Source: a virus
DNA: 44,568 bases
Strand: one strand, 5' to 3'
IMG/VR virus record: IMGVR_UViG_3300050821_004743
Span: 1-44,568 of that record
The stretch's first letter is position 1. Each line of letters opens with the position of its first letter. Shown piece by piece: positions 19,161-44,568 of this stretch. The notes beneath the pieces were generated by a model. It was not told the origin of the DNA, searched no databases, and worked only from the letters and a program-made list of their open reading frames with translations. Made by a program: the position numbers and the translations under genes.

Positions 19161-19186
19161 ACCCTTGATTTTTTCTTTTTTTCTTT
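19161..19186 (+). repeat. 26-bp promoter-core direct repeat, copy 1
   Basis: Exact match to 26884-26909. It covers ACCC, the -35 box TTGATT and 16 of the 17 spacer bases. The -10 boxes differ (TATACT here, TACAAT in copy 2). Confidence 0.85.
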
Positions 19187-19193
19187 TTATACT
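19165..19193 (+). promoter_or_regulatory. Sigma70-type promoter with T/C spacer (P1)
   Basis: TTGATT at 19165-19170, a 17-base spacer made only of T and C, and TATACT at 19188-19193. The interval 19125-19233 holds no gene. The start of transcription would be near 19200, and AAAGGAG before ATG 19234 serves the first gene. The bases from 19161 on share a 26-bp exact repeat with 26884-26909. Confidence 0.75.
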
Positions 19194-21181: not shown

Positions 21182-21315
21182 TGCTGGAACTGGCGGTGAC
21201 GTTCCTTTCGTTTCTCTTGCTTGTGATCGTCATGGACTCCCAAAAATTTTGTCCATATTGTCCGCATTGCGAAGAGAAACGCACCCGAAAACGCAGACGC
21301 CATCGTCGGGCTTGA
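21181..21315 (+). CDS. 44-residue membrane-anchored Cys-rich protein
   Basis: From ATG 21181: residues 2-18 form one membrane span (LELAVTFLSFLLLVIVM), then CPYCPHC and a tail with many Arg and Lys. A membrane anchor, a metal-knuckle-like Cys cluster and a basic tail suggest a small regulator at the membrane. Its TGA stop lies inside the -35 box of the promoter at 21312. Confidence 0.65.
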   Translation: MLELAVTFLSFLLLVIVMDSQKFCPYCPHCEEKRTRKRRRHRRA

Positions 21316-21340
21316 CATTTTTTTTATTTTTTTCTTTAAT
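21312..21340 (+). promoter_or_regulatory. Sigma70-type promoter with T-rich spacer (P2)
   Basis: TTGACA (consensus -35) at 21312-21317, a 17-base spacer that is T/C except for one A, and TTTAAT at 21335-21340. Transcription would start near 21347, leaving a leader with AAGGAGA before ATG 21364. The upstream gene's stop TGA (21313-21315) is inside the -35 hexamer. Confidence 0.75.
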
Positions 21341-21715: not shown

Positions 21716-22017
21716 TGCCGCATCAAGCGTACCGCACCATCGCGCACATGCCCGCATGTCGAGAAACAAGGGGAACGCTCTGCAAAGAGCACGAAGTTAT
21801 TTATTGCCAATGCCACGGCCAATGCCCGCATTGCACGTCTACTAAACCACAGGGAGAACATCATGGAGACCGAACAAGGCATACCGAAGTCCACCGTCGA
21901 ATTGATCGAGCAGGGATTGACCGTCATGCGGATGGAGAACGAGACCCAGCAGGCAATGGCGATTCAGAAGCCGCGCGACATCGAGGCCCTTACGACCAAG
22001 GCCATAGCGGAACTTAG
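21715..22017 (+). CDS. Cys-rich small protein, overlapping the annealase gene (uncertain)
   Basis: The frame opens at ATG 21715, coupled to the previous stop. Its first 49 codons cover a stretch used by no other gene and encode CKEHEVIYCQCHGQCPHCTS, a plausible metal-binding cluster. It then runs 155 bases into the next gene out of frame, where its sequence is Arg/His-rich and shadow-like. Possibly a small gene that lost its original stop. Confidence 0.42.
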   Translation: MPHQAYRTIAHMPACRETRGTLCKEHEVIYCQCHGQCPHCTSTKPQGEHHGDRTRHTEVHRRIDRAGIDRHADGERDPAGNGDSEAARHRGPYDQGHSGT

Positions 22018-22903: not shown

Positions 22904-23547
22904 CCCAGCTTCTTGCTCTGGACGAAATCGTCTTTGACGAGGAACCGCACACCTATACGGTAGGCGGCAAACGCTTCGTCTCGGTGACGCAGGCCATCCG
23001 TACCGCAGGGTTCGGGCCTGACTTTAGCGCGGTGCCGCTCGAACTGATGGAATATGCCCAAGATAGGGGACGCCTCGTTCATATGGCGTGCCAGTATTAC
23101 AACGATGGCGACCTGGATCTAGGCACCGTGGACGAGAAGATCCGGGGCTACGTCGAGGCCTATATCGACTTCCGGCTTCATTGCTCCATGAAGGTGTCCT
23201 ACGTCGAAAAGCGGCTGGCCTGGGTGGCGCTCGGGCTGGCCGGGACGCCGGACATGGTGTGCTTCATCAACGGGCGCCGCGCGGTGGTCGACTTGAAGAC
23301 CTCCCAGAACCTGGGGAAAGACGCTGGGCTTCAAACGGCTGGGTATCAGATCTTGCACGAACTGAATTTCCCTAACCAAATGATCTACGGCCGCTATGGA
23401 CTTCGGCTCGGAAAAGATGGAAAATTTAAACTTATTCCGCATGAGCGGGAGACGGACTTGATGGCTTTCAGGGATTGCCTCGACTATGCCAAGGCAAAAG
23501 CCGCCAAGGACCGATGGAACGAAACTTACGGCCGCATGGCCGCATAA
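22900..23547 (+). CDS. PD-(D/E)XK exonuclease (RecB/Cas4-like)
   Basis: 215 residues. Motifs in order: RGRLVH (56-61), a Glu near 103, GTPDM with Asp118, VVDLKTS with Asp131 and Lys133, then QTAGYQI (145-151). This is the RecB-type nuclease core, with a likely two-metal active site. It probably resects double-stranded ends for the annealing protein encoded just upstream. Confidence 0.82.
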   Translation: MTQLLALDEIVFDEEPHTYTVGGKRFVSVTQAIRTAGFGPDFSAVPLELMEYAQDRGRLVHMACQYYNDGDLDLGTVDEKIRGYVEAYIDFRLHCSMKVSYVEKRLAWVALGLAGTPDMVCFINGRRAVVDLKTSQNLGKDAGLQTAGYQILHELNFPNQMIYGRYGLRLGKDGKFKLIPHERETDLMAFRDCLDYAKAKAAKDRWNETYGRMAA

Positions 23548-23563
23548 ACCACAGGGGGAACCA

Positions 23564-26631: not shown

Positions 26632-26891
26632 GCGCCCTTCCCTGCGCCGATGGTATCCACGTTCAAGGATGTTCCCACCTTCCGAAAGAACCGTGCAGCC
26701 ACATCAATGCTTGCTGTAAATTCTACGCTACGCTAATGGCGACCAAATGCGCCAACGAACACGCCGACGCCGCGAGGCTCTCGGCCTGGATTTTGGACAC
26801 GAGACGAAAGCCGGCCGTCACCGCTTTTACGGAAGGCCCAGAGCGTCAAATCGCCTACGCCATCGAAACGATGCTGGACTGGCACCCTTGA
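26628..26891 (+). CDS. Cys-rich hypothetical protein
   Basis: 87 residues, ATGA overlap with the previous gene. Six Cys in the first 41 residues (C6, C15, C23, C29, C30, C41), then a helical end. Its TGA stop (26889-26891) lies inside the -35 box of promoter P3. Confidence 0.65.
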   Translation: MSALPCADGIHVQGCSHLPKEPCSHINACCKFYATLMATKCANEHADAARLSAWILDTRRKPAVTAFTEGPERQIAYAIETMLDWHP

Positions 26892-26909
26892 TTTTTTCTT
26901 TTTTTCTTT
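26884..26909 (+). repeat. 26-bp promoter-core direct repeat, copy 2
   Basis: Exact match to 19161-19186, spanning the -35 region and most of the T/C spacer. Located 7.7 kb from copy 1. Confidence 0.85.
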
Positions 26910-26916
26910 CTACAAT
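26888..26916 (+). promoter_or_regulatory. Sigma70-type promoter with T/C spacer (P3)
   Basis: TTGATT at 26888-26893, a 17-base T/C spacer, and TACAAT at 26911-26916. The expected transcription start (26922-26924) falls on or next to ATG 26924, so the first mRNA would be leaderless or nearly so. Confidence 0.75.
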
Positions 26917-26923
26917 CTCGCAC

Positions 26924-27046
26924 ATGAATCCCTGGATTATCTGTCTCGCATGGGTCGTCTTGATCGGGGTCTTGATTGCCCTCGTTGAAATCGCTAGAGC
27001 CATCGCATCCGATGATGACGACCCGTGGAAGGACTCCCCGCCATGA
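26924..27046 (+). CDS. 40-residue membrane protein (possibly leaderless mRNA)
   Basis: Residues 3-28 form one hydrophobic span (PWIICLAWVVLIGVLIALVEIARAI) followed by an acidic tail DDDDPWKD. No Shine-Dalgarno lies before ATG 26924, and the -10 box of P3 ends 7 bases upstream. Overlaps the next gene by 4 bases. Confidence 0.62.
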   Translation: MNPWIICLAWVVLIGVLIALVEIARAIASDDDDPWKDSPP

Positions 27047-27492
27047 GCAAATCCCTATTTATGGAGTCGACCGAGATCCCCACCGAACGCACCGTCTCCC
27101 AGATCCAAGAAGTGCTGATGCGTCACAAGGCCAGCGCCATCCTCACGGAGATGAAGAACGGGGAAATCGACTCTATATCCTTCAAGCATGACGTTGGTGG
27201 CGTGGCCGTTCCGTTTCGCCTACCGTGCCGGGCGGCCGCCATCGAACAAATTCTCGTGAGCCGTAATCGCAAGACGTTCACGACGGACAGGGAAAAAGAG
27301 AATCGGCGACTCCGCGCCCGGCGCATTGCGTGGCGCCAGATCCTTCGCTGGGTCGAAGCCCAGATGGCGCTCGTGGAAACCAATATGGTCAAGATCGAGG
27401 AAGTCTTCTTTCCGTACATTCAGACGAAGAATGGACAAACGATTTATGAATTGCACAGCGGCAACCTCTTACAGCTTGGCGTTGGCAAATAG
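27043..27492 (+). CDS. Conserved phage hypothetical protein
   Basis: 149 residues from ATG 27043. The sequence TVSQIQEVLMRHKASAILTEM, VPFRLPC, and RRIAWRQILRWVEAQMALVETNMVKIEEVFFPYI with NGQTIYE belongs to a family very common in phage early regions; no function is established. The C-terminal helix pair with Trp and Arg may bind DNA. The structured intergenic region follows directly. Confidence 0.75.
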   Translation: MSKSLFMESTEIPTERTVSQIQEVLMRHKASAILTEMKNGEIDSISFKHDVGGVAVPFRLPCRAAAIEQILVSRNRKTFTTDREKENRRLRARRIAWRQILRWVEAQMALVETNMVKIEEVFFPYIQTKNGQTIYELHSGNLLQLGVGK

Positions 27493-27495
27493 ATT
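27468..27495 (+). promoter_or_regulatory. Weak promoter candidate before the structured RNA
   Basis: CTTACA at 27468-27473, 16 bases, TAGATT at 27490-27495, overlapping the end of the upstream gene. Only moderate agreement with consensus, so read-through from P3 may equally supply the RNA. Confidence 0.3.
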
Positions 27496-27861
27496 TCGCC
27501 CTGATGGTTTAGGACCATACCCTAAAAAGCCTTCGTAAGTCGTAATGAGAAAAATGGTCACCGACGGTAAAGCTGGGAAGTCGCGCTCCCAGAACGCCTA
27601 AGAATATCGGTCAAAGGGATCAGGGCTTAATCCTTGGGCATTCGCCGGGGCGCAGACCCCGGACTTCTGCGAGATAAACGGCGGCCAGTCCGTGCGTGAA
27701 TGGAATGCCCTTCAATTTCAGCGCCGGGGAACACAAAGCGGCGGAACAATCCGCCCACTTCAAAATACACGGCGCTGAAAGAGCCCGGGGATGGGCTTCT
27801 GAAAACTCTCTGACTTTGGCGGTTTCAAAGTAAACCGCCCGAATTTTAACAAGGGGATATC
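27493..27861 (+). ncRNA. Putative large structured RNA of unknown class
   Basis: No gene fits these 369 bases. Helices in order: 27508-27513/27521-27526; 27573-27578/27587-27592 enclosed by 27560-27564/27607-27611; 27614-27618/27631-27635; 27636-27643/27703-27710; inside it 27645-27650/27657-27662, whose 6-base loop is complementary to 27666-27671; 27716-27726/27770-27780 (11 perfect pairs) enclosing 27740-27745/27750-27755 with an ACAA loop; 27782-27786/27793-27797; 27818-27825/27832-27839, whose loop is complementary to 27813-27818. Strand of action is presumed + because all genes are +. It is not tRNA, tmRNA, RNase P or 6S by any signature I can see. A weak likeness to group I intron P7-P8-P9 is noted elsewhere. 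Confidence 0.6.
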
Positions 27862-28581
27862 GTGACCTGCATTAACCGCAACTGTATTGGCAAGAACGAA
27901 GAACGCGCCGATGGCGTGATCCATAAAATTTGCCAACGGTGCGGACGTCTGATGGCCACGATCAAGCCGATCAAAGAACGTCCGCTTCTTCTCCGAGGGG
28001 ATCTCGTGCAAGACATCTATGCCGGGAGAAAAACCCAGACGCGCCGACCTGTAAAGCGCGCTCTCTTCCATCGCATGACCGATGAAGCCAACGTCTTCGG
28101 TGAAGGGTTTATCAGCACGAACGATTGCCCTTACGGCATTCCAGGGGATCGGCTTTGGGTGCGGGAGACGTGGTGTAAGGCCTATGATGACGTGTTCTAT
28201 CGGGCCGATGGAGATCCTAAATTTACGGATGGAACACCGTATTCAGGATTGATTGGTAAGTGGCTCCCCTCCATCCACATGCCACGCTGGGCCAGCCGCT
28301 TAACATTGGAAATCGTTAGTGTAAAGATTCAGCGTTTGCTTGACATAAGCGAAGCCGACGCGCGGGCCGAGGGCAAAGACCCGATTCACAAGGGCGTTGT
28401 GGCCACCATCGAGACGACGAACCTTGCCACGAAAGAAACCCAGCGCATCGTGCATGAGAACAAAGAAGGGCGTACCGCGCGACAGCGCTTCCTCGATTCA
28501 TGGGACAAGATCTATGCGGCCAAGGGGTTTGGACGAAACGAAAATCCATGGGTGTGGGTGATAGAATTCAAGCGCATATGA
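27862..28581 (+). CDS. ASCH-like phage protein with N-terminal Cys motif
   Basis: 239 residues from GTG 27862, 6 bases after AAGGGGA. Residues 3-29 hold CINRNC ... CQRCG, a zinc-knuckle-like addition. From residue 31, KPIKERPLLLRGDLVQDIYAGRKTQTRRPVK, then PYGIPGDRLWVRETW and WASRLTLEIVSVKIQRL, match a widespread phage family related to ASCH domains (possible RNA binding). ATG 27952 would remove the Cys motif but has no good ribosome site. Confidence 0.78.
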   Translation: MTCINRNCIGKNEERADGVIHKICQRCGRLMATIKPIKERPLLLRGDLVQDIYAGRKTQTRRPVKRALFHRMTDEANVFGEGFISTNDCPYGIPGDRLWVRETWCKAYDDVFYRADGDPKFTDGTPYSGLIGKWLPSIHMPRWASRLTLEIVSVKIQRLLDISEADARAEGKDPIHKGVVATIETTNLATKETQRIVHENKEGRTARQRFLDSWDKIYAAKGFGRNENPWVWVIEFKRI

Positions 28582-32227: not shown

Positions 32228-32256
32228 AAAGTATTTCCCCGCAGAAGGATATCCGC

Positions 32257-32292
32257 AGCCGTGGGCTAGAATTTTTGGCCCACGGCTTTTTT
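32257..32292 (+). terminator. Intrinsic terminator
   Basis: AGCCGTGGGC (32257-32266) pairs perfectly with GCCCACGGCT (32278-32287), 11-base loop, followed by TTTTTT to 32292. Ends the transcription unit of the 82-residue helical protein. Confidence 0.9.
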
Positions 32293-32316
32293 ATTTATCG
32301 ACGATAAAATAGGGGG

Positions 32317-32346
32317 TTGACATTCGCTCTTAAATGTCGATAATGT
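32317..32346 (+). promoter_or_regulatory. Sigma70-type promoter of the replication unit (P4)
   Basis: Consensus TTGACA at 32317-32322, 18 bases, TAATGT at 32341-32346. Lies directly downstream of a strong terminator, so it must start a new transcript. Expected start near 32353, one base before the GGGAGACGG stem of the leader. Confidence 0.78.
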
Positions 32347-32353
32347 GCGGCAT

Positions 32354-32466
32354 GGGAGACGGGATCAGACATCATCAAATTTGCTGGCCCACCTGGGTCG
32401 GCTATTTTTTTGCCCCGACCGCGAACCGTCTCCCAAGATTAGTAGCGGCCGGGGCTCTATTTTTTT
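32354..32466 (+). ncRNA. Structured leader with two terminator hairpins (attenuator or small RNA)
   Basis: A 9-bp closing stem joins 32354-32362 with 32426-32434. Terminator 1: 32383-32390/32395-32402 with an ACCT loop, then TATTTTTTT. Terminator 2: 32412-32422/32445-32455 (10 of 11 pairs), then TCTATTTTTTT ending at 32466. Competing pairing: GGTCGG (32396-32401) with CCGACC (32415-32420), which uses one arm of each terminator. The closing stem and terminator 2 also exclude each other. This is the logic of an attenuator in front of the replication initiator, 10 bases before its start codon. Confidence 0.68.
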
Positions 32467-32476
32467 AGGGGGTTAG

Positions 32477-33271
32477 GTGGTTAAACGGTTTCATGATACG
32501 GAGATCTGGAAGCAGGATTGGTTTATTGGTCTTCCGTCTGTGTATCGCACACTCTGGCTCTTTATGAAAGATACGTGCGACCATGCCGGGATATGGAAAC
32601 CCGAGACCAAATTCTTCGAGTTCATCGCTGGGTGTCCCGTGGAATTGGAAGTAGCGCTCGAACATTTCAATGCCCAAAAAGAACGTGTCACCGTTCTTAA
32701 AAATGGAAGGTGGTTTCTGACGGACTTTATCGGCTTCCAATATGGCGGGAAACTGAACGTGAACAACCATTTACACAAGTCGGTCTTAGGGCTTCTAGCG
32801 GTCAATGGGGTCAAGTTGACCTCAAAGTCGGGGGAACTTGACCCTAAACTGACCTCTAGGTCAGGTGATGTTGGGGGCAACGGTACCCCCAAGGACAAGG
32901 ATAAGGATAAAGACAAGGACATGGGGGTGCTCATGAACGACACATCCGAACTGCTCGGGTTTTTCCAAGCGGGGTTGAACTGGCGGCACGCTGAAAAGGC
33001 CCGCATGAATTACGGCGCTGCCGGGAAACTCTTTAAGTCGCTCTTGAAGGATTACCCAAAGGATGAGATCAAAAAGCGGATCGAGTTTTGGCTCCAAAGC
33101 ACCGACCCGTTTGTGGTGAAGCGCGGCTGGCGCGTGGAAGATTTTGGAACGAACTTCAACAATTTGAAGACTGGGCCGATGGTGCCCAAAGGTGGAACCG
33201 ATGCAAAAGATCAACGCCGAAAGCCTCTTGGCCAACATACAGCCCCTGCAGCAAAATACGCCGGAATCTGA
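32477..33271 (+). CDS. Replication initiation protein, lambda O-like
   Basis: 264 residues from GTG 32477 with AGGGGGTT upstream. Residues 1-110 look like a winged-helix DNA-binding domain (WFIGLPSVYRTLWLFMKDTCDHAGIW; TVLKNGRWFLTDFIGFQYG). A disordered linker with a (Lys-Asp)n run, KDKDKDKDKD, follows. The C-terminal part (TSELLGFFQAGLNWRHAEKARMNYG) resembles the loader-contact domain of O-like initiators. The next gene is a DnaC-like loader, as expected. Candidate origin repeats lie within this gene at 32800-32870. Confidence 0.78.
   Translation: MVKRFHDTEIWKQDWFIGLPSVYRTLWLFMKDTCDHAGIWKPETKFFEFIAGCPVELEVALEHFNAQKERVTVLKNGRWFLTDFIGFQYGGKLNVNNHLHKSVLGLLAVNGVKLTSKSGELDPKLTSRSGDVGGNGTPKDKDKDKDKDMGVLMNDTSELLGFFQAGLNWRHAEKARMNYGAAGKLFKSLLKDYPKDEIKKRIEFWLQSTDPFVVKRGWRVEDFGTNFNNLKTGPMVPKGGTDAKDQRRKPLGQHTAPAAKYAGI
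32800..32870 (+). other. Candidate replication origin repeats inside the initiator gene
   Basis: GGTCAAGTTGACC (32809-32821) and CTGACCTCTAGGTCAG (32849-32864) are near-perfect inverted repeats, with another TTGACC at 32838-32843. The TGACC/GGTCA element therefore occurs five times in about 55 bp. Lambda-type phages keep their origin iterons inside gene O at the domain linker, which is where these lie. No AT-rich unwinding region is obvious next to them. Confidence 0.45.
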
Positions 33272-33872: not shown

Positions 33873-33979
33873 AAGGTGTCTGTAATCGCTGTAAACGATT
33901 CGTGAAGGTCGGAGTCAACGGGCTTTGTAGTCTATGTCAACGAAAAAACCACAGGGGGAAACCATGTCAGTTAAAGTGA
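33869..33979 (+). CDS. 36-residue zinc-ribbon micro-protein
   Basis: ATG 33869 (ATGA overlap with the loader gene). CNRC, an 11-residue arm, and CSLC form a minimal zinc ribbon with many Lys and Arg. It ends at TGA 33977-33979, 16 bases inside the next gene. Confidence 0.6.
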   Translation: MKGVCNRCKRFVKVGVNGLCSLCQRKNHRGKPCQLK

Positions 33980-34835: not shown

Positions 34836-35050
34836 GAAAGCGCCATCCGCTCAAAGAGCACCGGGAAGCGGTCATCCTTTGGCTTCTGGCGCATAAGAGG
34901 CTATGGATCGACCCAGGGCTCCCGCTCCGAAAAGAGTGCGTTAAAGCCCTGAAAGCGGACGGCCTATTCAGCTTGAAGACAGCCGCCTGCGACATCAAGA
35001 TCGAGAAGTACATCACGGATCCGCGATGCGCGCGGCACATCCGACTATAA
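34832..35050 (+). CDS. Hypothetical basic protein
   Basis: 72 residues, ATGA overlap with the nuclease. MRKRHPLKEHREAVILWLLA and LRKECVKALKADGLFSLKTAACDI suggest a small helical, possibly winged, DNA-binding unit. No family assigned. Confidence 0.65.
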   Translation: MRKRHPLKEHREAVILWLLAHKRLWIDPGLPLRKECVKALKADGLFSLKTAACDIKIEKYITDPRCARHIRL

Positions 35051-35070
35051 AACCACAGGGAGAATAAACC

Positions 35071-41533: not shown

Positions 41534-41747
41534 CGCGCCGAAGATCCTTCCCGCGTCTCTTCAAATCACCGTCGCCTACAACACGACCAACGGCCAGATC
41601 CTGGTACATTGGCCGACCACGTTCAAAGACGAATGCGTCGAGATTCTTCTCGAGGCCGTCAAAGTGGTCTACCACGCCAAACCGAATGCCCTGACCAAAG
41701 CCGGGGCCAATGTTTTGGCTGGCCTCACCATTCCAGGTAAGGCGTAA
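41487..41747 (+). CDS. Hypothetical head-region protein
   Basis: 86 residues from ATG 41487 with AGGGGGA 9 bases upstream; an in-frame ATG at 41448 lacks such a site. Pro-rich start (DKKPDAPQPTPPSNAPKILP), then a small beta/alpha domain. It overlaps the portal gene end in another frame. Unknown role in head assembly. Confidence 0.68.
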   Translation: MEDKKPDAPQPTPPSNAPKILPASLQITVAYNTTNGQILVHWPTTFKDECVEILLEAVKVVYHAKPNALTKAGANVLAGLTIPGKA

Positions 41748-42749
41748 ATGCCCGAAACCGTTCCCGTTCATCGCCTGCGTCCCGACATCTACGAAGGCAT
41801 GGAAGACCAGATCGTGGAGATGTTCCGCGAGATCCTCTTCCAGCCTTTGGTGGATGTCCTGAAACAGGAGACCTCGGGAACGGTCATGGTGCTGGAAAAC
41901 GCGCCTGTGGATCTTGTGCTAAAAGCCATCCGGGAAGGCAAACTCCAATATGCCCAGGGCGTCTTCTCTGGCACCTATACGGCGCGGCTGGCCGTGGCGC
42001 TTCGTGCGCTGGGCGCGGAGTTCGACGCGCGGAGCAAAGTTTATCGGGTATCGCAGGGAAAAGTCCCCGGGGCCATCGTGGCGGAAGCCTCGGCCTACCA
42101 GGACAAAGCCAAGCGCATCCATCAGGCCATTGACCGTACGCTGAACGATATCGTGACGGGGCTTGAAACCAAAGTCGCCGGGAAGTCGTTGGATGCAAGC
42201 AACGTGTTCGTGGACATCGAGGATGGGTTCGCACCGGCCGCCAAGGCTCTCGAGGTCAACCCGAAATTGAACCCCGACAAAAAGACCGAACTTGAGCGGC
42301 GCTATACCGACAACGTGAAATTGGCGGTGAACGATTTCACGAAGAAGCAGGTGTTGATGCTTCACAAAGAGGTCGAGAAAAACGCGACCGAGGGATACCG
42401 CTTCGACAAACTCACCGAGGCCATCCGCAATCGTTATGGCATCGCGCAGCGCCACGCGAAGTTCTTGGCGCGGAACGAAACCTCCATCTTCATGAGCACG
42501 TACCGGGAACAGCGGTTCCAGCAGGCGGGCGTCCGGCGCTATATCTGGGTGACCTCTCACGATTCGCGCGTGCGTCCCGCCATTGGCCTAACGGCGCGCG
42601 AGAAGCAACTGGCCGGAAACCACCGCGAATTGGATGGCCACGCTTTCTTTTTCAACGATCCGCCGATTGTGGATAAGAACACGGGGCGCCGCGCCAACCC
42701 CGGCATGGACTACAACTGCAGGTGCATCGCCAAGCCGATCTTGGAGTAG
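41748..42749 (+). CDS. Head morphogenesis protein (Mu gpF / SPP1 gp7-like)
   Basis: 333 residues, immediately after the previous stop. The C-terminal domain has RHAKFLARNETSIFMSTYREQRFQQAGVRRYIWVTSHDSRVRP and ends with NPGMDYNCRCIAKPIL, the conserved PG-x-D-x-NCRC motif. Minor head proteins of this family bind the portal and may enter the cell with the DNA. The N-terminal two thirds are helical. Confidence 0.88.
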   Translation: MPETVPVHRLRPDIYEGMEDQIVEMFREILFQPLVDVLKQETSGTVMVLENAPVDLVLKAIREGKLQYAQGVFSGTYTARLAVALRALGAEFDARSKVYRVSQGKVPGAIVAEASAYQDKAKRIHQAIDRTLNDIVTGLETKVAGKSLDASNVFVDIEDGFAPAAKALEVNPKLNPDKKTELERRYTDNVKLAVNDFTKKQVLMLHKEVEKNATEGYRFDKLTEAIRNRYGIAQRHAKFLARNETSIFMSTYREQRFQQAGVRRYIWVTSHDSRVRPAIGLTAREKQLAGNHRELDGHAFFFNDPPIVDKNTGRRANPGMDYNCRCIAKPILE

Positions 42750-42930: not shown

Positions 42931-44412
42931 ATGCCGATCCTTACCCCGGAGAAGGGCGAACAAGAAAAGGCTTTCGTATCTCGCTTCCTGGCGAATGCGG
43001 TGGCCTCGAAAGCGTTCCCCGAAGAAAAACAGCGCGCGGCCATCGGCTATGCGGTCTACCGCAATTCCCTCGTGAACGATGCACCCGCCGCCGGCCCGAA
43101 GTTCCTCAAGCCCTCCGAAGACGACGACATGAATAAATTTATAGAGAAGTTCATGCTCGATCCCTACACGATGGGCGAGTTCCCGAACTCCAACGAACGC
43201 CGCGCGATCGCCACGTTCTTGTGGAAGGACAAGGAAAATTCTGACGATGTTTTTAAAGAGGGCCTTCTGCGTTCGATGTCGGAGCCCGCGCGTCCGAAGC
43301 CCGTGCAGAACGCCGCCGATGATGACGAATGGCCGCGGCCTGTCACCGCTCGTTTTATTTTACCTGGCCTCGTTCACTATGAAGATCTAAGCGACGGACA
43401 GGGCTCCACGATTTTGGTTCAAAAACCGATGCTGGACAAGATGCTCAATTCCTTCATCGGCAAGCCGGTCGTTAATGAAAACCATCGTCCCGTTCATAAC
43501 CGCGACTTCAATATGGGCAATGCCGACGGCATCGTCTCGAAGGCCTGGTACAACGCCGACGACGGCTATTATTACTGCGACATGCTCGTCTGGGATCCAG
43601 AGACGCGCAAGAACATGGAAAGCGGCTACTCGGTTTCGTGCGCCTACGTTGTCAAGGAATGGAACAACGAAGGCGGGACGTTCAGCAACATTCCGTATCA
43701 ACGCGAGGCGGTCGATGGCGAATACACTCACATGGCCATCGTTTCAAACCCGCGTTACGAACAGGCGCACATCTTCAATGCAATCAAAGGAGGCTGTATG
43801 TCGATCCTCAAAATGATCTTCAAAGGCAAAGACGAAAAGGAACAGTCCATCGACCTCGATACCAAGACATCCTTGGAACTCGGGAACGGGAAATCGGCCA
43901 CCATCGAAGAGATGGCCAATTCTTACCTGGCGGCTGAAAAGCTCCGGGAAGAAGAAGCCAAAAAGCCGAAGGACGACACCTTGATCGACCTCGGCAACGG
44001 CAAAAAGATTTCGCTCGGCGATCTGAAAAAGCAGCACGCCGAGACTCTTGCCAACGCGGAATCCTCGGAAATGAAGAAGGAACACGAGGACGGCGACCAC
44101 AAGGACTATAAAGAAAATTGTGGGATGTGCTCGAAGGAGCGCAAAAACGCCGAAGACAAAGAAGCGAAGGAAAAAGAGGAAAAAGATCGCCAAGAAGCCG
44201 AACGCAAAAATGCGGTCGAGCGAGCTCGCAAGGAAACGGAAGACGCCGAAGGGCGCCGAGCCGCCGAGCGCCTCGACAACGCCGCACGGCTTCGCCGCGG
44301 AGAACTTGGTACCCCCAGCGTCTCCACCTTGGATGATGGCATCCAGCGCGGTAAAGCGATGTTCGGGTTCCACGATGACTTGAAGCAGCCGGCCGCGCCG
44401 GTTGCCAAATAA
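42931..44412 (+). CDS. Prohead protease fused to scaffold (DUF2213-type)
   Basis: 493 residues. Residues about 10-48 form a helical N-terminal domain. Residues 140-285 match DUF2213 proteases: NENHRPV with His185, SGYSVSCAYV with Ser236, and DGEYTHMAIV with His267 as probable catalytic residues. After residue 290 the protein turns into a Glu/Lys-rich coiled coil (EAKEKEEKDRQEAERKNAVERARKE), a typical scaffold. No ribosome site precedes ATG 42931; the T-tract of a terminator abuts it. Confidence 0.85.
   Translation: MPILTPEKGEQEKAFVSRFLANAVASKAFPEEKQRAAIGYAVYRNSLVNDAPAAGPKFLKPSEDDDMNKFIEKFMLDPYTMGEFPNSNERRAIATFLWKDKENSDDVFKEGLLRSMSEPARPKPVQNAADDDEWPRPVTARFILPGLVHYEDLSDGQGSTILVQKPMLDKMLNSFIGKPVVNENHRPVHNRDFNMGNADGIVSKAWYNADDGYYYCDMLVWDPETRKNMESGYSVSCAYVVKEWNNEGGTFSNIPYQREAVDGEYTHMAIVSNPRYEQAHIFNAIKGGCMSILKMIFKGKDEKEQSIDLDTKTSLELGNGKSATIEEMANSYLAAEKLREEEAKKPKDDTLIDLGNGKKISLGDLKKQHAETLANAESSEMKKEHEDGDHKDYKENCGMCSKERKNAEDKEAKEKEEKDRQEAERKNAVERARKETEDAEGRRAAERLDNAARLRRGELGTPSVSTLDDGIQRGKAMFGFHDDLKQPAAPVAK
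43798..44412 (+). CDS. Nested scaffold protein from internal start
   Basis: ATG 43798 is in frame with the protease gene (residue 290) and has a perfect AAAGGAGG 4 bases upstream (43786-43793), far better than the site of the full-length gene. The 204-residue product is the charged, coiled-coil part alone, with repeated LGNGK motifs (near full-length residues 314 and 353). This is the lambda C/Nu3 arrangement: more free scaffold than protease-fused scaffold. Confidence 0.75.
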   Translation: MSILKMIFKGKDEKEQSIDLDTKTSLELGNGKSATIEEMANSYLAAEKLREEEAKKPKDDTLIDLGNGKKISLGDLKKQHAETLANAESSEMKKEHEDGDHKDYKENCGMCSKERKNAEDKEAKEKEEKDRQEAERKNAVERARKETEDAEGRRAAERLDNAARLRRGELGTPSVSTLDDGIQRGKAMFGFHDDLKQPAAPVAK

Positions 44413-44427
44413 AAAGGAGATACGACC

Positions 44428-44568
44428 ATGGGCGTGACACTCTATACTAACCAGTTCGGCCAATCCGTCGCCGTCGGTGACCTTGACCTCGGACTTATGG
44501 CGTCGGGTTCCATCACCGGCATCGTGAGCCCCAATCAAAGTTCCCCGGCCGCCACCATCAATGCGGGA
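44428..44568 (+). CDS. Capsid decoration / structural cement-like protein (N-terminal part)
   Basis: ATG 44428 with AAAAGGAGA upstream. It reads to the window end and continues in frame at position 1 to the stop at 384, giving about 160 residues in the circular genome. See the entry at 1-384. Confidence 0.85.
   Translation, partial: MGVTLYTNQFGQSVAVGDLDLGLMASGSITGIVSPNQSSPAATINAG
44527..44568. repeat. Terminal direct repeat (circular-closure overlap), right copy
   Basis: Identical to 1-42; marks closure of the circular map. Confidence 0.93.

Follow-up and report, generated by a model that had tools for sequence, protein, structure and literature searches.

The RNase III sites of phage T7 are the type case of processing and stabilising hairpins placed between the cistrons of a phage operon, and gene 32 of phage T4 is an example of a phage mRNA with a pseudoknot in its leader. 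The locus described here is a gap of 369 bases inside the operon of a phage whose record (IMG/VR record IMGVR_UViG_3300050821_004743, 44,568 nt, analysed in full and here called the window) encodes contractile-tail, head and terminase proteins. Like the T7 sites, it lies between same-strand genes of what would be a single transcript, and has a long hairpin with an internal loop; it differs from them in being longer and in having additional alternative pairings, and cleavage is here only a proposal. Like the T4 gene 32 leader, it has short segments capable of forming pseudoknots, situated 5' of the gene for a presumed nucleic-acid-binding protein, whereas its several arrangements, its length of 369 nt and the lack of a known binding protein set it apart, and its pseudoknots are only possible ones.

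Larger structured RNAs of phages and bacteria include GOLLD, ROOL and OLE, the first of which is present in some phages (PMC12286853). The gap shares with them that it is non-coding and structured, but it is much smaller, shows no conservation and matches none of the 4227 Rfam families. tmRNA, which it recalls in its length and in having several pseudoknot-like elements, was rejected, as the gap has no tRNA-like domain; ARAGORN found neither tRNA nor tmRNA, and Rfam found no tmRNA. An earlier note on this DNA, made from the sequence alone, had proposed an Rfam search. No family of Rfam 15 (4227 families, among them tmRNA, group I and II introns, ribozymes, GOLLD, ROOL, OLE and riboswitches) matches at gathering score in the window, and at E up to 10 there is only a chance match (SOX2OT_exon2, E 6.3). 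A type III toxin-antitoxin RNA of the ToxIN kind, with tandem pseudoknot repeats before a toxin gene, was rejected because the gap has no direct repeats and the downstream protein has an ASCH fold. A retron or DGR non-coding RNA was also rejected: neither the neighbours nor any further window protein in the scan, which took in only part of the small ORFs, is a reverse transcriptase.

In each of the six frames of the gap the codon-usage score is below zero or close to it, compared with a median of 0.42 for real genes, which rules out a hidden gene or pseudogene on either strand. The size of the gap is not unique: naive ORF calling leaves gaps of 345 to 399 bases elsewhere in the window, some of them with small ORFs. 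Taking the analysis as a whole, we regard the gap as a credible, though unproven, structured RNA or DNA site without an assigned class. The features discussed below are collected in Table 1.

Table 1. Coordinates of the gap, its structural features and its neighbours, as positions in the window.
Feature	Position	Strand	Description
Predicted promoter	26888..26916	+	TTGATT-17-TACAAT; would transcribe the gap by read-through
Upstream gene	27043..27492	+	149 aa, phrog_17260, function unknown
Non-coding intergenic element (the gap)	27493..27861	+	Between two same-strand genes; credible ORF absent
Loop-flank arrangement 1	27504..27525	+	AUGGU-UUAGG-ACCAU-AC-CCUAA; alternative hairpins (-3.8 / -3.6 kcal/mol) or small H-type pseudoknot
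Outer imperfect helix, 5' arm	27609..27639	+	Pairs with 27783-27815; pair probabilities 0.8-1.0 in the isolated gap
8-bp stem of the earlier note, 27636-27643/27703-27710	27636..27710	+	Exact; alternative to the outer helix
Loop-flank arrangement 2	27645..27671	+	CCGGGG-CGCAGA-CCCCGG-ACU-UCUGCG; hairpins (-12.6 / -7.5 kcal/mol) or H-type pseudoknot
Central hairpin	27716..27780	+	Perfect stem of 11 bp, then a 9x9 internal loop, 3 bp and a stem of 6 bp capped by ACAA
Outer imperfect helix, 3' arm	27783..27815	+	From folding of the isolated gap
Loop-flank arrangement 3	27813..27839	+	ACUUUG / GGCGGUUU-CAAAGU-AAACCGCC; 8-bp hairpin (-11.8 kcal/mol) clearly wins
Downstream gene	27862..28581	+	239 aa, phrog_874, ASCH fold, GRKTQTRR signature, ribosome-binding site AAGGGG

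All of the stems named in the earlier note are exact and lie at the coordinates it gave (TTTCAGCGCCG/CGGCGCTGAAA, GGGCATTC/GAATGCCC and GGCGGTTT/AAACCGCC). They include the perfect 11-bp stem 27716-27726/27770-27780 and, inside it, the 6-bp hairpin GGCGGA-ACAA-TCCGCC. The 11-bp stem is the longest perfect inverted repeat of the window at spacers of up to 60 bases, and the central hairpin, taken as 73 nt, has a z of -6.64, none of 200 shuffles being equally stable. The last hairpin (27818-27839) has a z of -3.15, while the remainder of the gap outside these two hairpins gives only -0.06 to -1.4. The gap has three perfect inverted repeats of at least 8 bp, compared with 0.297 in dinucleotide shuffles (P 0.003, spacers of up to 60 bases), and its longest inverted-repeat arm also exceeds the shuffles (P 0.002); the criteria for this and the other measures of structure were set after the earlier note had pointed to the gap, and the measures are partly interdependent. 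Weighing all of the measures together, our judgement is that the gap region is very probably non-random. The interpretation in the earlier note is supported in part: single-sequence statistics and codon scores favour a non-random, structured and non-coding element over plain spacer, and they suit a regulatory, protein-binding, packaged or anti-host RNA alike.

Folded as a whole against shuffled controls, a comparison that the earlier note had named as able to refute its reading, the gap does better than the shuffles, though modestly (minimum free energy z: + strand -2.84, - strand -3.34). Four of 120 segments of 369 nt reach this z, one of which overlaps the gap (30 shuffles per segment), placing it in about the lowest 4%. 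The raw folding energy is ordinary, 26% of 369-nt segments being lower. Global folding is moderately unusual, and most of the signal comes from the central hairpin. Three segments with a stronger 369-nt folding z than the gap, 43912-44280 (-6.3), 41698-42066 (-5.2) and 1477-1845 (-5.1), at 30 shuffles each, are wholly or mostly coding sequence.

In the favoured fold of the isolated gap, the outer imperfect helix is wrapped around two hairpins, the CCGGGG one and the central one; small separate hairpins lie on either side. The 8-bp stem 27636-27643/27703-27710, exact as it is, has an ensemble probability of 0, being beaten by the helix 27630-27639/27783-27792; forcing it costs only 2.6 kcal/mol.

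The two strands fold equally well, and hence the fold gives no sign that the + strand RNA is the functional form; the readings as a site acting at the DNA level and as an insert without function both stay live. At the DNA level, the overlapping inverted repeats would be binding or recombination sites, for example for replication initiation, as a repressor operator, or as an end used in packaging or transposition; folding of the RNA would be a by-product. Perfect Watson-Crick helices of equal stability on both strands are consistent with this, as are the overlapping palindromes at 27813-27839 and 27645-27671. On the other hand, direct repeats or iterons are absent from 27450-27900, the GC-skew table has no skew switch at the gap, and no candidate binding protein was identified beside it. 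A DNA-level site appears unlikely.

Some of the hairpins in the gap have a loop that is complementary to the flank of the same hairpin. The two such cases described in the earlier note are present, namely CGCAGA/TCTGCG (27651-27656/27666-27671) and CAAAGT/ACTTTG (27826-27831/27813-27818, base 27818 being also part of the stem), and there is a third at 27504-27525. All three have the order A-B-A'-B', with little or no linker. Counting loops that pair over at least 5 bases with their own flank, the gap holds 3 clusters where 0.10 are expected (P 0.0002). When whole 44.6-kb genomes are shuffled (n=200), 9% hold some 369-base stretch with as many clusters, a scan-corrected P of 0.09, and after such a blind genome-wide search this measure alone is suggestive only. 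The earlier note judged the linkers too short for full pseudoknots, which holds for 27813-27839, where the linker is zero. The arrangements at 27645-27671 (3-nt linker) and 27504-27525 (2-nt linker) are borderline: geometry rules suggest that opening one pair would make a compact H-type pseudoknot sterically plausible in each, which is thus borderline possible.

That 369 nt contain several distinct helices together with three loop-flank pairings could suggest a stand-alone RNA of a new class, freed from the operon transcript to act in trans or in a ribonucleoprotein, as an anti-host, decoy or packaged RNA. The absence of an Rfam match would suit such an RNA, but would likewise be expected of an unstructured spacer. 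Given that it would have neither its own promoter nor a good 3' terminator, and shows no conservation, this seems very doubtful. We would also not expect, though it is conceivable, that the gap represents a new and narrowly distributed class of phage non-coding RNA, in which the stable central hairpin and the contiguous A-B-A'-B' segments (as bistable hairpin pairs or compact pseudoknots) steer host or phage expression from an early or middle operon, whether released or in place.

Searches for homologues of the element were uniformly negative. A blastn search of the gap against phages and plasmids gave no match, and exact 17- to 19-mer scans of IMG/VR with three parts of the element gave hits in which the resemblance breaks off a few bases beyond the k-mer. 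Those hits that were read in context belong to a coding region resembling that of an integrase (L040), to the end of a coding sequence (L042) and to the 3' end of a tRNA (L098). A covariance model built on 27630-27792 (R1) matched only itself, including its reverse-strand palindrome, in 48 related records and in the loci. It found no homologue in 395 and 297 whole bacterial genomes of two phyla, a null result that says little, since these phyla were chosen only for holding relatives of the upstream gene and may not be those of the host. The nearest records found have 63% (capsid) and 49% (terminase) protein identity, and neither these nor 47 other related records contain a match to the element in sequence or structure. 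The window itself contains the element only once.

Relatives of the upstream gene (15 loci, 29-53% identity) are followed by the next ORF immediately or within about 230 bases, with the exception of one locus (L094), which has a 332-base gap that is AT-rich and unrelated to the element. Among relatives of the downstream protein (17 loci in other phage contigs), the ASCH gene begins 0-134 bases past the previous ORF, with no long leader. Relatives of both genes thus manage without a comparable element, and so these genes do not need it. This absence, and that from the related records, indicates on present sequence evidence that the element is specific to this phage lineage. The collections searched may omit close relatives of the window, and the null result is therefore not equivalent to a lack of short-range conservation.

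The absence of the element from relatives on both sides would also be explained by an insert or decayed remnant, either a non-autonomous mobile element of small size or the remains of an old gene, whose hairpins have no present function in the phage. The GC content of the gap (52.8% by base counts, compared with 56.9% for the window) and the scan-corrected P of only 0.09 for the loop-flank clusters point the same way. However, there is no second copy in the window or in the searched collections and no coding remnant, and structure in such excess should be lost when selection is absent. We consider an insert or remnant rather unlikely, while giving it serious weight.

We tentatively favour a function in cis, which falls somewhat short of being probable: that in a polycistronic phage message the gap serves as a structured, non-coding element specific to the lineage, acting as RNA through processing or protection. 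This is proposed because the operon is on one strand, the only predicted promoter is upstream, there is no coding signal, and there is an excess of hairpin and loop-flank structure. No promoter was found within 26900-28400, which includes the gap, and a polycistronic message would start near 26923 and carry the gap. The central hairpin, together with the alternative hairpins or small pseudoknots on its flanks, would then form a structured barrier between the genes at 26924-27492 and the ASCH-fold gene. The message may be processed or protected at this barrier, in the manner of the RNase III sites or stabilising hairpins that other phages have between cistrons, giving different expression levels for the two halves of the operon. 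The central hairpin has the size and internal loop that we take to be typical of a substrate for a double-strand-specific RNase. We infer that the gap is transcribed, that RNA rather than DNA is the active form, and that its role lies in processing or stability. The failure to find a homologue, the relatives of the two neighbours that lack the element and the equally good folding of the two strands all count against a function in cis. It is worth adding that the hairpin at 27818-27839 is followed by CGAATTTTAAC and not by a U run, and is absent from the terminator scan list; it is weak at best as an intrinsic terminator.

The downstream protein was modelled with a mean pLDDT of 82. The best PDB matches to the model are YqfB (E 2.6e-4) and then other ASCH-domain proteins; the protein carries the GRKTQTRR motif and has no Pfam match. 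It also has an N-terminal Cys-rich extension, CxxxxC...CxxC (27862-27951), which is zinc-ribbon-like and absent from the aligned homologues. The Zymomonas ASCH protein ZmASCH has nucleic-acid-binding activity and cleaves single-stranded RNA (PMC5615036), and autoregulation is therefore conceivable, in which the ASCH-fold protein would bind the structured region as a leader and repress or degrade its own message. This is most improbable, in view of the 17 homologous ASCH genes in other phage contigs that have no such leader, and of a start site that is accessible in the isolated transcript. With an opening energy of 3.9 kcal/mol, this start is the eighth most accessible of 44, which argues for free downstream translation and not for simple occlusion. 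The predicted pairing partners of its SD sequence shift with the length of RNA folded. A translation-occluding leader with SD sequestration is ruled out by the accessible start and this context-dependent pairing; translational coupling was rejected too, as a modelled ribosome at the upstream stop codon gives no gain in accessibility of the ASCH start. The modelling thus does not support a simple ribosome-site switch for the ASCH gene.

The structure is real enough that testing for covariation and RNA-seq are warranted, and a new mechanism is so far not indicated. Compensatory changes in near relatives would make this a new phage RNA family, overlooked in a poorly sampled lineage, and would imply that mid-operon gaps of small phage genomes can hold elaborate RNA. 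If there is no compensation, the gap is a documented example of the reach and limits of single-sequence folding evidence.

Some other features of the window deserve mention. Bases 1-42 are identical to 44527-44568, consistent with a complete genome that has direct terminal repeats or is circular. The predicted promoter at 26888-26916 has a T-rich spacer in common with that at 19165-19193; these and a third at 21310-21338 all have an all-pyrimidine T-rich spacer (TTGATTTTTTCTTTTTTTCTTT...), two being near-identical over 29 bases, and they are probably a phage promoter family. The sequence AAACCACAGGGRGAA is repeated at 21836-21858, 23538-23560, 33938-33960 and 35042-35064, just 5' of genes, and may be a shared ribosome-binding or regulatory element. 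Finally, the region 32228-32476 contains a strong intrinsic terminator (32257-32287, a 14-pair stem with a T run). Next comes a promoter close to consensus (TTGACA-16-GATAAT, 32317-32344), and then, before the gene at 32477, some 130 nt of leader. The leader contains GGGAGACGG/CCGTCTCCC and also two segments rich in GC, both with a T7 run behind them; there is no Rfam match. This region resembles an attenuator or a riboswitch-like leader for the 32477 gene, and as a candidate RNA switch with a regulatory role it is better than the gap at 27493-27861.
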